From: Fischerella sp. CENA71
GTDB lineage: Bacteria; Cyanobacteriota; Cyanobacteriia; Cyanobacteriales; Nostocaceae
DNA: 64,000 nt
Direction: 5' to 3'
NCBI GenBank assembly: GCA_024239075.1
Contig: JANBVI010000053.1
Location: 153,064 to 217,063, forward strand
In this document: positions 8,897-40,649 of the stretch, in pieces
How the letters are laid out: the number at the start of each line of letters is the position of its first letter
How positions within the stretch are numbered: the first letter of the stretch is position 1
Position numbers and translations under genes: made by a program
The notes under the pieces: generated by a model
The model's input: the letters and a program-made list of their open reading frames with translations, nothing else
What the model was told of the DNA's origin: nothing
Databases searched by the model: none

Positions 8897-9499
8897 ATGA
8901 CGAAAAGAGTGTTGTTTTCCTTAATTACTGTAGCATTACTATGTAGCGGATTTACTCGTGTCGAGGCACGTCCTCCCCAGCGCCCTCTTTCCCCAACCAA
9001 ACCAGCTCCGAATAAACCAATTAAGTCAGAATGGAAGCTATTCACTGCCCCAGATGGTAGCTTTACTGTCTTAATGCCGGGAATGCCTAAAGCGATTACC
9101 CAAACTCAACAGACCTATATGGGGGCAATAAATTTACAAGTTTTTGTTGGTCAACTAGCTAACCAAGAAGTGGCTTACGTAGTCGCATACAATGGCTTCC
9201 CCTATAGCTATGGTCAAATGACAAATCCCCAATTAATACTTAATAATGCCCAAACTTTGGCTGTTAAAGCTACCCAAAGTAATTTAATTGGACAACGTAG
9301 CATTAATAGTTCAAATGGTCATCCCGGCAAAGAAATTGAGTATATTAACTCTGCTGGGAAAATCACCAAAAACCGAATGTATGTTGCTGATGGACGTTTG
9401 TATCAAGTCATGGCGATCGCAACTACAAAACAACAGAAGACTTTATCTAAAACTATTGATGGATACTTGAATTCTTTCCAATTAGTTTTGAAAAAATGA
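8897..9499 (+). CDS. Exported protein of unknown function
   Basis: A signal peptide is clear at residues 1-25 (MTKRVLFSLITVALLCSGF...VEA). A proline-rich linker (RPPQRPLSPTKPAPNKP) follows, then one domain that begins WKLFTAPDGSFTVLMPGMPK and ends in a C-terminal helix. The phrase 'W..F..PDGSF.V..PG.P' recurs in small cyanobacterial secreted proteins whose role I do not know. No catalytic motif or cysteine pair is visible in the mature part. It is probably periplasmic or thylakoid-lumenal. The gene is monocistronic, with a tandem repeat just upstream. Confidence 0.75.
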   Translation: MTKRVLFSLITVALLCSGFTRVEARPPQRPLSPTKPAPNKPIKSEWKLFTAPDGSFTVLMPGMPKAITQTQQTYMGAINLQVFVGQLANQEVAYVVAYNGFPYSYGQMTNPQLILNNAQTLAVKATQSNLIGQRSINSSNGHPGKEIEYINSAGKITKNRMYVADGRLYQVMAIATTKQQKTLSKTIDGYLNSFQLVLKK

Positions 9500-36877: not shown

Positions 36878-36949
36878 GCCAGCATAGCACAGTGGTAGTG
36901 CATCCGACTTGTAATCGGAAGGTCGTCGGTTCAAATCCGACTGCTGGCT
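36878..36949 (+). tRNA. trnT: tRNA-Thr (anticodon UGU)
   Basis: A complete cloverleaf: acceptor GCCAGCA with TGCTGGC, anticodon stem TCCGA/TCGGA around loop CTTGTAA with anticodon TGT, and T arm GTCGG-TTCAAAT-CCGAC. No CCA is encoded. The CAST-like element begins 7 nt after its 3' end. Confidence 0.96.
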
Positions 36950-36955
36950 TTATAA

Positions 36956-37069
36956 TGTAGACCGACAAATTATTTGTTCGTAGCGACAGATTATTTGTCA
37001 AAAAGCAAAAACGACAAATTGTTTGTCATAGTTATTTTACTAGTGTTGAATAACTAATTGTCAAATAAC
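36956..37069. repeat. Left-end cluster of TnsB-like binding sites
   Basis: Four related sites are seen. They are GACAAATTATTTGTT (36963-36977), GACAGATTATTTGTC (36985-36999), GACAAATTGTTTGTC (37012-37026, a perfect 15-bp palindrome apart from its centre) and a diverged TAACTAATTGTC near 37048-37059. They are spaced like the left-end sites of CAST elements. Confidence 0.75.
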
Positions 37070-37443
37070 TACGGAAAATCTCAGTGATATTCAAGACAAG
37101 AATCGTTTTGATGTCATCTTGGCTAATCCGCCATTTGGGGGGAAGGAACGCAAGGAAGTACAGCAGAATTTCCTGATTAAAACAGGGGAAACGGTGTTTC
37201 TGTTTTTGTAGCATTTCATCAAAATGCTAAAAATTGGCGGTAGGGCTACGGTGGTAATTAAAAATAAGCTCCTATCAAATTCTGATAATGCTTCGCGGGC
37301 GTTGCGTCAAGAGCTTTTGAGTAGTTGCAATCTGCACACGATTTTGGATTGTCCGAGTGGGACTTTTATCGGGGCGGGAATAAAAACGGTGGTGCTGTTT
37401 TTTGAGAAAGGAAAGCCCTTCGATGCTGTTCAGGGAACGCCTT
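37066..37443 (+). pseudogene. Fragment of type I restriction methylase (HsdM)
   Basis: The reading frame contains RFDVILANPPFGGKE, with the NPPF catalytic motif of N6-adenine methylases. It then meets an in-frame TAG at 37209-37211 where HsdM has Gln, and resumes HFIKMLKIGGRATVVIKNKLL through GIKTVVLFFEKGKP. The N-terminal part with the SAM-binding motif is absent, and the C-terminus dissolves into a 'ttcggcttcgctcaacc' repeat. It is a non-functional remnant inside the CAST-like element. Confidence 0.85.
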
Positions 37444-37597
37444 TATTTTCTCAGGGAAATTTTGGCGGGGATTGGGGGAATGCTATAGGAAGCTGGTTTC
37501 GGCTTCGCTCAACCAGTACAGAGTCAATCGCTCAACCAGTCAAAGATGAGGGCTGAGCGAAGTCGAAGCCTGTTTTTTTGGCATGAGGTCATAAATA

Positions 37598-37945
37598 ATG
37601 CCCTATATGTATATTCTGGAATGTGCTGATGGTTCTTTCTATACAGGTAGTACAAAGGATTTATCTCGTCGTTTATGGCAACATCAAAATGGCTTGGGTG
37701 CAAATCACACAAAGAAGCGACTACCTGTAAAGTTAGTTTATGCAGAGCATTATGATCATGTAGTAGATGCTTTCTATCGAGAGAAACAGGTTCAGGGTTG
37801 GAGTCGGGCTAAGAAGATTGCTTTAATGAATAGTGATTGGGATCGCCTTCATATTTTGGCGGAGTGTCAAAATTATTCACATTATGAAAATGCTGGTTTC
37901 GACTCCGCTCAACCAGCAAAGAATTCAAAGGGTGATGATAATTAG
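37598..37945 (+). CDS. GIY-YIG nuclease family protein
   Basis: The small GIY-YIG (UPF0213-type) domain covers residues 1-80: YMYILECADGSFYTGSTKDLSRRL, with the YIL...FYTG form of the motif and the catalytic Arg, then KLVYAEHYD and REKQVQGWSRAKK. The last 20 residues or so (AGFDSAQPAKNS) are translated from a dispersed repeat, so the natural C-terminus has been replaced. It lies between the hsdM and hsdS remnants, inside the transposon ends. It may still be active; the role is unknown. Confidence 0.85.
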   Translation: MPYMYILECADGSFYTGSTKDLSRRLWQHQNGLGANHTKKRLPVKLVYAEHYDHVVDAFYREKQVQGWSRAKKIALMNSDWDRLHILAECQNYSHYENAGFDSAQPAKNSKGDDN

Positions 37946-37953
37946 GGTCAGGT

Positions 37954-38270
37954 ATGCAGTTGACAGTTGATAGTGGACAGTTGCCAATGGGATGGGAGAT
38001 TAAAAAACTCGCTGAAGTTTGCCAAATAGAAAAATCTCAAGGTATTTATGCAAATTTGCCTTATGTCGGCATGGAAAATATTGAATCTAATACCGCTAGG
38101 TTTATTGGCTCAACTGAGCCACAATCTGTAAAAAGTTCAACATTTAAATTTAGTCCTAAGCATATATTTATGGGAGACTTCGCCCATAACTTAATTGTCC
38201 TCCAGATTTTGCTGCTGGAATTAGAGGTGCAAGGATTTCCCACTCCATATCATTTAAGTCTGTCGGGTAA
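37954..38270 (+). pseudogene. Fragment of type I restriction specificity subunit (HsdS)
   Basis: The first part reads LPMGWEIKKLAEVCQIEKSQ and PYVGMENIESNTARFIG, typical of an HsdS target-recognition domain. Near 38165 the frame is broken: the expected YGRLRP continues in another frame, hits TAA directly after RP, and goes on with LNCPPDFAAGIRGARIS to a stop at 38268-38270. The rest of the roughly 400-residue subunit is missing. Its N-terminal residues (MQLTVDSGQ) come from a tandem repeat. Confidence 0.83.
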
Positions 38271-38384
38271 GACTTTCGACCCATGAGCAACTATGTAATT
38301 ACACTGTATATCGGCTATCTTATCCTTGCGACAATCGAATTCTACTCGCCTTTAGATTTAATTTATAAATGTTCACGATGCAGA

Positions 38385-38433
38385 AGTATGACAAATAATT
38401 TATCGATGTGGTCAATTAATTTGTCTCCCTACA
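38385..38433. repeat. Right-end TnsB-like sites
   Basis: Read on the minus strand from 38433: TGTAGGGAGACAAATTAATT, then a second site ATAAATTATTTGTC ending at 38386. This mirrors the left end, with fewer and more diverged sites. It stops 8 nt short of the stop codon of the neighbouring kinase gene. Confidence 0.72.
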
Positions 38434-38441
38434 GATTCGCA

Positions 38442-40649
38442 TTAAAATTCTTGATTCATAGGTAAGGTAAACCAAAAAGTTGCGCCTGCATTTGGTGTGC
38501 TATCAACACCAATTTCTCCGCCATGAGCCTTGATAATGCGTTTGCACAGATATAATCCTAATCCCAAGCTTAAAGAATTGCGGTTATTGCTACCCCGGAA
38601 GTATAAATCAAATAATCTTTCGGACTGTTTTTGACTCAAACCCACGCCATTATCGGTAACTGTGCAATAAATTTTATTTTCCTGGGCGATCGCATTGATG
38701 GTTATACTCAACCCTGGAGGATTATGTTTAACTGCATTGACAATTAAATTAGAAAATACTCGCCATAGTTGCGTTGAATCGCCATTCACTAAGGGTAGTT
38801 CATCTTTCACTAGGTCAGTCAAAGTGATTTGATTTTCTGTCAACATTGATTGTAGATCAGCGATCGCATCTTCAACAATTTTGTGCAATCTTACAGGTTG
38901 ACGTTGTAAAACAATACCTTGCACTTCGCTAATATGAGCTTCCATCAGTGAGTTAATTAAATTTAACTGTCGCTCACTGCTTTGTTGCATTCGTTCTAAT
39001 ATCGACCGAGGAACGGGAATTGAGGAAACAGAAGAAGACGCGGGGAGTGAAAGACGCTCTGACGCGGAGATATCTAAATTCTCCCTGTTCCCTTGTTCCC
39101 GTGTAAGTAAATTATTTAAAACCATGAGTGTACCCAAAACCGGGTTGCGTAAGTCATGGGAGACTGCATGGACAAATACTCGTAGTGCTTCTTCAGTACG
39201 TTTGCGATCGCTAATATCTAAAATTACTCCCACTAAACCACCAAGAGATTCGTCTGCTTTGCAAAAAGTTGCTTTGTAAAAAATCACATCGTGTTTTTTA
39301 CCATCTTTGTACAACACTGAATCTTCGTAACTCTGCACACCTCGTTGTAAAAATAAATTTGTATCTGCTTGTTGATATTTTGCTGCTAATTCTTTGGGCG
39401 ATAAATCATACTCTGTTTTGCCAATAATTTGCTCTTTCTTAAATCCCAAAGCTTCCTCAAAAGCTTTGTTACAACCTAGATACAAACCTTCAGGATTTTT
39501 ATAAAAAACTGGCGTCGGAATAGTATCAATTAAAACTTGTAAAAAATCTAATTGTTCTTGTAAAGCTGCCTCAGCTTGCTTACGTTGAGTGATATCTTCT
39601 ATTAATCCTTCGTAGTAAAGTAACTTCCCGTTTTCGTCACGAACTGCGTATGCTTTTTCCGAAATCCAAACGATACTACCATCTTGACGATAAATTTCTG
39701 ACTCAAATTCAGATACTTTTCCATATTCTTCAATTAAGCGCACAAACTCTGTACGTCTTTTGGGATCAACATAAAGTTGATGTTCTATATCAGTGAAATT
39801 TGTTGTTACTTCTGTTGAAGATGAGTATCCATAAATACGCGCTAATGCCGGGTTTGCAGTAATATAACGTCCATCAGGAGTACTTTGGAAAATACCTTCA
39901 ACAGCATTTTCAAATATACTGCGATATTTTGCTTCCGTTACTCTCAATTTTTGATAGGCAAATTCCAGTTCTTTCCGAGCATAAAATTCAGAGTGTTGTA
40001 GGCGCTCATATAAATAAACGCCGATATTACAAATCGCACAGAACCAGAACAAATATAAAATAAAGGTGACATTATATAATTCTGGATGTTCTGGTAGTGG
40101 TAATCTTAGCGCCAGTATTTTATTTAGACCAAAATAGTAAATAAATAACCCAAGTTGAGATGTGAAATGCAAATTCCAGCATACTGGTAAAAATATCGCT
40201 TGACTGAGAAACAAAAGTGACCAACCCAAGGTATCAGGTAGTGCAAAACCTTTGAAAGTTGCAAAAATTTGAGGGATCAGATTTATTGACCAAGATAAAC
40301 TTAAAAATACTATTCCTGGATACTGACGACCAAATTTTGTTTGACGCAAAGCCATGCATAAACCCAAACTCATAAACATTGCAATATCCATGAATAGTGC
40401 TTGAGTTCTCAGTACTTCTGGTAGTTTTTGCAATTCTTTGAGAGGGAAGAAAAAATTATAAATGTCTCGCAATGTAAACGTTAAGATACAAATGAGACCC
40501 AGCCATAACAATAAACCTAGTCTCTGCCATAAAAAGTTATTACGCCAATTTTGGTATTCATTAGCAATATAATCTGCTATTGGCGTTTTATTTTGATCAG
40601 AAACAACTTTTTTTCGCCATTTCCGCATTATTTTACATATGGTCTTCAT
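38442..40649 (-). CDS. Membrane-bound PAS sensor histidine kinase with repeat-derived insertion
   Basis: The 735-residue protein has about six membrane segments at residues 38-230, then two PAS domains (about 243-360 and 370-490). A DHp domain with H-box HAVSHDLRNPV follows (His498), then HATPase_c with N-box SNLIVNAVKHNPPG, DNGVGLSQ, LGLGLYL and FWFTLP. All kinase motifs are intact. Between H-box helix and second DHp helix are about 30 residues rich in Ser, encoded by the 'gacgcgg' dispersed repeat (about 39010-39105). It probably senses a membrane or redox signal; no response regulator is adjacent. Its 3' end abuts the CAST-like element. Confidence 0.9.
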   Translation of the reverse strand: MKTICKIMRKWRKKVVSDQNKTPIADYIANEYQNWRNNFLWQRLGLLLWLGLICILTFTLRDIYNFFFPLKELQKLPEVLRTQALFMDIAMFMSLGLCMALRQTKFGRQYPGIVFLSLSWSINLIPQIFATFKGFALPDTLGWSLLFLSQAIFLPVCWNLHFTSQLGLFIYYFGLNKILALRLPLPEHPELYNVTFILYLFWFCAICNIGVYLYERLQHSEFYARKELEFAYQKLRVTEAKYRSIFENAVEGIFQSTPDGRYITANPALARIYGYSSSTEVTTNFTDIEHQLYVDPKRRTEFVRLIEEYGKVSEFESEIYRQDGSIVWISEKAYAVRDENGKLLYYEGLIEDITQRKQAEAALQEQLDFLQVLIDTIPTPVFYKNPEGLYLGCNKAFEEALGFKKEQIIGKTEYDLSPKELAAKYQQADTNLFLQRGVQSYEDSVLYKDGKKHDVIFYKATFCKADESLGGLVGVILDISDRKRTEEALRVFVHAVSHDLRNPVLGTLMVLNNLLTREQGNRENLDISASERLSLPASSSVSSIPVPRSILERMQQSSERQLNLINSLMEAHISEVQGIVLQRQPVRLHKIVEDAIADLQSMLTENQITLTDLVKDELPLVNGDSTQLWRVFSNLIVNAVKHNPPGLSITINAIAQENKIYCTVTDNGVGLSQKQSERLFDLYFRGSNNRNSLSLGLGLYLCKRIIKAHGGEIGVDSTPNAGATFWFTLPMNQEF

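Follow-up and report, generated by a model that had tools for sequence, protein, structure and literature searches.

The element described here occupies positions 36956-38433 of the window, i.e. of the whole 64,000-nt stretch of DNA that was analysed (contig C53, 153064-217063), which comes from a 7.47-Mb draft genome of 95 contigs. It is about 1.5 kb long, starts 7 nt after a tRNA-Thr gene (36878-36949), exactly as had been claimed in the preliminary description, and terminates in inverted repeats of 45 nt (76% complementary) that begin with TGTAG at 36956 on the plus strand and at 38433 on the minus strand. The following features were identified at the locus:

36878..36949, plus strand: tRNA-Thr (TGT), the attachment gene (ARAGORN)
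36895..36914, plus strand: GTA (PAM position) and 17-nt protospacer position GTGCATCCGACTTGTAA, 58 nt before the left end
36956..37070, plus strand: left end, TGTAG, with TnsB-type sites at 36963, 36984 and 37012 and a weaker one near 37051
37071..37459, plus strand: hsdM fragment, interrupted by one in-frame stop (37209), with about 129 of some 504 codons remaining
37456..37459: deletion junction within hsdM, at which about 286 bp present in genome G013 are missing
37598..37945, plus strand: GIY-YIG nuclease ORF, 115 aa, open (Pfam PF01541, 5.6e-16)
37954..38195, plus strand: truncated start of a probable hsdS gene (element positions 996-1240)
38196..38370, minus strand: fragment of an IS4/IS5-type insertion sequence (element positions 1241-1415)
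38371..38433, minus strand: right end, TGTAG, with sites at offsets 7 and 28 counted from 38433
38434..38500: right junction, where the flank common to relatives resumes at the base after the right end (alignment of G002, G003 and G004)

The TnsB-type sites lie at offsets 7, 28 and 56 in the left end and at offsets 7 and 28 in the right end, and the site scanner reported one extra, weaker match per side (offset 95 on the left, 65 on the right). A strict end model, composed of TGTAG and two GACAAATTA sites at fixed spacing with at most 3 mismatches in all, identified exactly two ends within the window, both of them belonging to the element, and none in 100 dinucleotide shuffles of the window, which bears out the earlier claim of two TGTAG termini with ordered sites at these coordinates. 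In the entire genome, a 23-nt end pattern with at most 3 mismatches gave 8 matches, against 4 for the backward control; 2 of the 8 are the ends of the element, 5 are ends of short repeats and 1 is the right end of another CRISPR-associated transposon (CAST). The absence of tns, tniQ and cas genes from the element, also claimed beforehand, was confirmed by the Pfam analysis of four ORFs of the element, and the tblastn search of the whole window (E 1e-6) found no match to Cas12k, CvkR, TnsB, TnsC or TniQ.

An exact pattern covering both ends was searched for in a collection of 84,980 genomes of bacteria and archaea (from which records close to the window may be omitted) and was found in 45 stretches, 44 of them cyanobacterial by title and 1 from Bacteroidales, with no match in viral contigs. 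Within these loci, each of 8 kb or less, cas12k was identified in two (L112, L137), TnsB, TnsC and TniQ in another two (L115, L144), and in seven (L112, L117, L123, L128, L137, L143, L153) the end is located 6-9 nt 3' of a tRNA gene called by ARAGORN. The most informative arrangement is that of Nostoc foliaceum FACHB-393 (L112), in which the end lies 7 nt after a tRNA-Ala gene and is followed by an anchor spacer, which reads as the reverse complement of the tRNA, and by a CRISPR array (anchor, its orientation and array judged by eye). A left end of the TGTAG type also stands at a tRNA-Val gene in G046, together with an anchor spacer and a broken-up cas12k, while right ends of this type adjoin tnsB, tnsC and tniQ in Nostoc sp. 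T09 (L144) and in N. foliaceum (L115); the TnsB and TniQ of L144 obtain their best scores against V-K models. The left end of the element is identical at 40/45 nt to the CAST left ends of L112 and L153, and it shows 87% identity over 103 bp to the left end beside tRNA-Pro in G004. The right end is identical at 41/45 nt to the right end beside TnsB in L144 and at no more than 35/45 nt to the left ends compared, its own excepted, and hence its sequence clearly marks it as a right end. Against the left end of the element, the best-matching right end (L115) reaches 39/45 nt, barely less than the 40/45 for left ends, so the identity of the left end is read from its position and from its third site. 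A decayed 17-kb element in G036 is bounded by a left and a right TGTAG-type end arranged as in the window, and it encloses pieces of cas12k and tnsB.

According to these sequence comparisons, the ends of the element are type V-K CAST ends of the TGTAG clade, as had been proposed in the preliminary description, and the agreement (40/45 with L112, 41/45 with L144) is with ends that stand beside V-K genes. The derivation of the element from a V-K CAST is thus very likely. With the characterised type V-K systems (ShCAST, AcCAST, AnCAST) it shares TGT..ACA tips and arrays of GACAAATTA-type sites; it differs from them in that it lacks cas12k, tnsB, tnsC, tniQ, a CRISPR repeat, an anchor spacer and a 5-bp duplication, and its tip reads TGTAG, against tgtacagtgac in the ShCAST donor primer quoted in an excerpt of PMC9527255. 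To the CASTs of N. foliaceum (L112/L115) and Nostoc sp. T09 (L144) it is related by the end identities given above and by the same offsets of the first two sites, but in those strains the machinery is present, while 36956-38433 is a remnant.

The interior supports the same origin. The open part of the hsdM fragment matches the Pfam family N6_Mtase, and the fragment (element positions 116-504) is 94% identical to the hsdM gene inside an intact V-K CAST of G055 (L161), whose order is left end at +7 of tRNA-Val, cas12k, hsdM, TniQ, TnsC, TnsB and right end. In the relatives L077, L161 and L167 the hsdM ORFs comprise 504-506 aa. Two pieces of the element (116-504 and 501-1063) map to positions 8957-9345 and 9632-10211 of L077 (G013), which places the deletion junction inside hsdM. 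The segment 996-1240 is 89% identical to the DNA just downstream of hsdM in G118 (L167) and gave no Pfam match; from its position we take it to be probably the start of hsdS. The 175-bp insertion sequence segment occurs in three copies each in G017, G029 and G039 and exhibits a weak match to DUF4096 (E 0.012), below the curated cut-off. According to an excerpt of PMC9938897, AnCAST carries restriction-modification genes, and the cargo of the element is of the same kind.

The hsdM piece was found in 15 of the 16 loci examined, cas12k in two of them (L161, L162) and tns genes in one (L161). Inspection by eye revealed hsdM preceded by a CAST-type left end at a tRNA gene, of other end types than TGTAG, in G013 (L077), G036 (L164), G057 (L170), G085 (L168) and G045 (L171), and no cas12k in these five stretches, which are of 20 kb or less and some of which end with the contig. 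Because five loci exhibit a left end and hsdM without cas12k, the loss of the CRISPR part with the cargo kept may be common, i.e. cargo may be retained at tRNA genes after the CRISPR part has been lost. As a separate observation, type I restriction-modification genes follow a CAST-type left end (in L163 the tRNA only) in L077, L163, L164, L168, L170 and L171, and cas12k is absent from all six stretches.

With respect to the tRNA gene, the element is located where V-K CASTs insert. The distance from GTA to the left end is 58 nt here, 59 nt in G046, 59 nt in N. foliaceum, 57 nt in Scytonema hyalinum L128 and 61 nt in G004 (measured at the left end beside tRNA-Pro, whose tip is mutated to TATAG). 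All these values fall within the 46-82 nt from GTN in a tRNA gene, with one exception of 147, that are given for V-K CASTs in PMC9938897. The anchor spacers of G046 and N. foliaceum match, by eye, the DNA after the equivalent GTA. In our element the protospacer position is deduced by analogy, as no anchor spacer remains: no 10-mer of the tRNA was found in the element, and neither was a CRISPR repeat core (four short strings were sought). Since neither spacer nor repeat is left, it is the position that argues for RNA guidance. Core strings of an anchor spacer against tRNA-Thr were also sought across the retrieved loci, and the contexts shown read as tRNA-Thr genes. The left end of L128 stands at the same tRNA-Thr gene as the element, and in G001, G004, G057 (L170) and L128 this gene is followed, by eye, within about 10 nt by a Tn7-like or CAST-like end. 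The tRNA-Thr gene is therefore a repeated landing site, with ends of other types at it in G001, G004 and G057 (L170), as judged by eye.

The right junction is exact. The blastn matches of the right flank begin at 38434 in G002 and G003, at 38435 in G004, at 38443 in G001 and at 38461 in G011. The preliminary description had suggested looking for the empty site in related strains; G002 and G003, both of the same genus, are indeed uninserted, but they contain 1,176 bp and 318 bp, respectively, between the tRNA gene and the junction point; in both, the right flank continues uninterrupted into this DNA, which is absent from the window. The last ~27 bases before the junction point are common to G002, G003 and G004 and are not shared by G001. 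A clean uninserted site is available only from G002 and G003, of differing lengths, because G004 carries another insertion at the site of the element, whereas in G001 the flanks are split between two contigs and the DNA before the junction is unlike that of the other relatives. The 7 nt between the tRNA gene and the left end did not align to relatives. The right junction is read as made by the transposase in a second event, since a random deletion would hardly stop exactly at a transposon tip.

The flanks, TATAA on the left and GATTC on the right, comprise no 5-bp target duplication, whereas the V-K target duplication is 5 bp according to an excerpt of PMC9527255. Among the CASTs used as controls, none of them an intact TGTAG CAST flanked on both sides within a single contig, that of G052, with another end type, exhibits a perfect 5-bp duplication (ACATT / ACATT), and that of G055, with a third end type, only a 4-bp repeat (ATAT). 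The decayed TGTAG element of G036 has no target duplication. Since this element and the short repeats described below are alike in this respect, the TGTAG clade may simply leave no duplication, which, if true, would weaken the adjacent-deletion step proposed in the next paragraph.

Combination of these results suggests, with good though not complete confidence, that the element is a decayed type V-K CAST of the TGTAG clade, the right junction of which resulted from a second transposition event: V-K ends and remnants of V-K CAST cargo are found together at a V-K site. Intramolecular replicative transposition yields adjacent deletions. V-K CASTs are without TnsA and transpose replicatively (PMC11406308, in excerpt). 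An intact CAST would first have inserted 7 nt after the tRNA-Thr gene under the guidance of Cas12k and of an anchor spacer directed at the tRNA. Later, in a replicative intramolecular transposition, a second strand transfer would have joined its right end to DNA located 0.3 to 1.2 kb beyond; the DNA in between would thereby have been lost as an adjacent deletion, so that the flanks no longer match. The CRISPR array, cas12k, tnsB, tnsC, tniQ and the greater part of the type I restriction-modification cargo would subsequently have disappeared through internal deletions and the arrival of an insertion sequence. If so, the exact right junction and the clean loss of adjacent DNA make this relic a natural record of what may befall a CAST after its insertion. 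Among the titles and abstract openings covered by the literature searches, none dealt with relics of V-K CASTs or with V-K MITEs; the work of Hsieh and Peters on tRNA attachment sites and on cyanobacterial Tn7-like elements may describe such relics.

Alternatively, one TGTAG-clade CAST could have inserted after the tRNA gene and another 0.3 to 1.2 kb downstream, and the two could have recombined so that only a left end from one and a right end from the other were retained. Such a hybrid explains the non-matching flanks and the lost segment no less well than an adjacent deletion, and left ends in tandem can be recognised by eye in G052 and G055, but members of the same rare clade would have had to insert twice at a single locus, and no further end of the TGTAG type is left in the window. 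We consider this explanation unlikely, although it is the best of the alternatives to a single decayed CAST.

The preliminary description had left two options, a deleted relic or a mini-element mobilised in trans, of which the former fits best. In the latter case the element would be a non-autonomous mini-CAST that reached this site as a 1.5-kb unit, with TnsB/TnsC/TniQ and Cas12k provided in trans. Both ends have indeed kept their tips and sites, the genome possesses three open TnsB/TnsC/TniQ operons (C63, C88, C38) and two cas12k genes (open on C64, with one stop on C70), and the 98% similarity between short repeats bearing the same ends suggests past movement of such ends within this genome. 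Judging from these operons and cas12k genes, V-K machinery is present, but of other end types. It had been proposed that a TnsB of the same strain whose native ends share the sites of the element would support mobilisation in trans; the comparison turned out against it, as four CAST ends of the genome are identical to the left end at only 22-27/45 nt and to the right end at 24-26/45 nt, and the three full TnsBs of the genome are 43-50% identical to the TGTAG-clade TnsBs of L144 and L115, which are 85% identical to each other. No TnsB of the TGTAG clade was found in the draft genome. In a TnsB search of 100 genomes (E 1e-60) the only near-identical match was the query's own place in G059, the others listed reaching at most 59% over the matched part. 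The 1.5-kb unit has one full-length copy in the genome, and among the matches listed for 120 genomes there was no second one, only pieces. Furthermore, the element has no target duplication, DNA is missing exactly at its right end, and its interior is a chain of deletions of ordinary cargo. MITEs are small elements with transposon ends and no transposase, a feature that the element shares with prokaryotic MITEs, but it differs from them in being single-copy, in having decayed cargo as its interior and in the lack of a target duplication. Because of the single full-length copy and the lack of a clade TnsB in the genome, the element is likely a relic rather than a mobile mini-element, and its arrival as a 1.5-kb unit appears improbable, more so than the recombination of two CASTs.

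Finally, an origin of the ends by chance or from an unrelated insertion sequence, which the insertion sequence fragment in the interior and the short TGTAG repeats without a known mover might bring to mind, is for practical purposes ruled out by the empty shuffles, by the same ends adjoining V-K TnsB/TnsC/TniQ and cas12k elsewhere (L112, L115, L144) and by the almost exclusively cyanobacterial occurrence of the end pattern (44/45 stretches).

Two further candidates for a TnsB in this genome were rejected. The broken tnsB on C66 (59% over 249 residues in the initial comparison) resembles the other TnsBs of its own genome (63%) more closely than those of the TGTAG clade (46%), a TGTCG-type end lies upstream of it, and it was ruled out as a partner of the element; a shorter Mu-transpos_C match on C58 gave no match in tblastn with the TnsBs used. 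The region of C66 (80168-81600, L230) that contains this broken tnsB, with a multi-site TGTCG-type end upstream, is a further decayed Tn7-like or CAST element in its own right. Contig C64 carries, from position 174488 (L025:9489-12819), a V-K CAST with a TGTACA left end, a short CRISPR array, the open cas12k and, where CvkR would be expected, a small gene; it adjoins a tRNA that reads as tRNA-Val, and the Mu-transpos_C search of C64 gave no match. The V-K-like TnsB/TnsC/TniQ operon at C38:1820-5400 (L022) is preceded by CTCAAAATAGATTTCG-type repeats (by eye), which differ from the usual GACAAATTA sites, and no match to cas12k was found on contig C38.

The relic points to a wider set of tiny elements with the same kind of ends. 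Among the loci retrieved there are 15 distinct places, counted once if aligned in both orientations, with a full-length repeat of 191-210 bp bounded by TGTAG-type ends, besides truncated copies. These repeats of about 195 bp contain no genes and are spread in Nostocales. Their copies are located as follows:

Own genome, full copies: C7:23660-23854 and C38:50551-50744
Own genome, partial copy: C38:47439-47573
Elsewhere: L074, L111, L114, L123, L127, L129, L136, L138, L140, L150, L177, L178 and L180

The two full copies of the own genome differ at three positions, and one end of the repeat agrees at 42/45 nt with the CAST right end of N. foliaceum. Of 199 genomes, 28 match the repeat at least in part, in many cases only through its end sequence. 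None of the 15 repeats has a 5-bp duplication; L138 has a 4-bp repeat, and the other 14 lack even 2 bp. For the copies of the own genome no clean unoccupied flank was found among the matches listed for 13 genomes. One of the 15 is at the CAST position, namely the 198-bp copy of Nostoc sp. FACHB-892 (L123), which starts 7 nt after a tRNA-Pro gene and 58 nt from GTA, with its more right-end-like end facing the tRNA. The truncated repeats of L119, L126, L131 and L134 were considered as ends of a larger autonomous element and rejected, since their common part extends only ~290-316 bp inwards and lies in a stretch that reads, by eye, as a chromosomal phosphatase gene; transposase-like ORFs of other kinds occur further in, in L126 only among these four.

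The existence of miniature CAST derivatives, suspected in the preliminary description, is not supported by 36956-38433 but may hold for other loci: the ~195-bp repeats and the shorter units are better candidates for miniature CASTs than the 1.5-kb element, albeit candidates without target duplications. Perhaps the TGTAG V-K CASTs gave rise to a truly mobile miniature family (~31 to 210 bp), moved in trans, at least sometimes to the RNA-guided tRNA site, as in L123, in which case the element in the window would be a larger substrate of the same kind; this is a tentative and on balance doubtful proposal. If true, the missing target duplications would mean an unusual way of joining. Short repeats with V-K CAST ends are candidate minimal substrates that can be tested directly.

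Ultra-short units that comprise little more than two TGTAG tips back to back were also observed, of 31 bp (L124:4785-4815), 51 bp (L147:3688-3738), 63 bp (L118:6188-6250) and 70 bp (L133:1196-1265). The 31-bp unit adjoins the apparent 3' part of a tRNA gene, recognised by eye and not called by ARAGORN. In another arrangement, near position 13688 of L073 (G061), a TGTAG end after a tRNA-Pro gene is followed by the repeats of a quite different CRISPR array (GTTTCAATCCCTAATAGGGATTTT).
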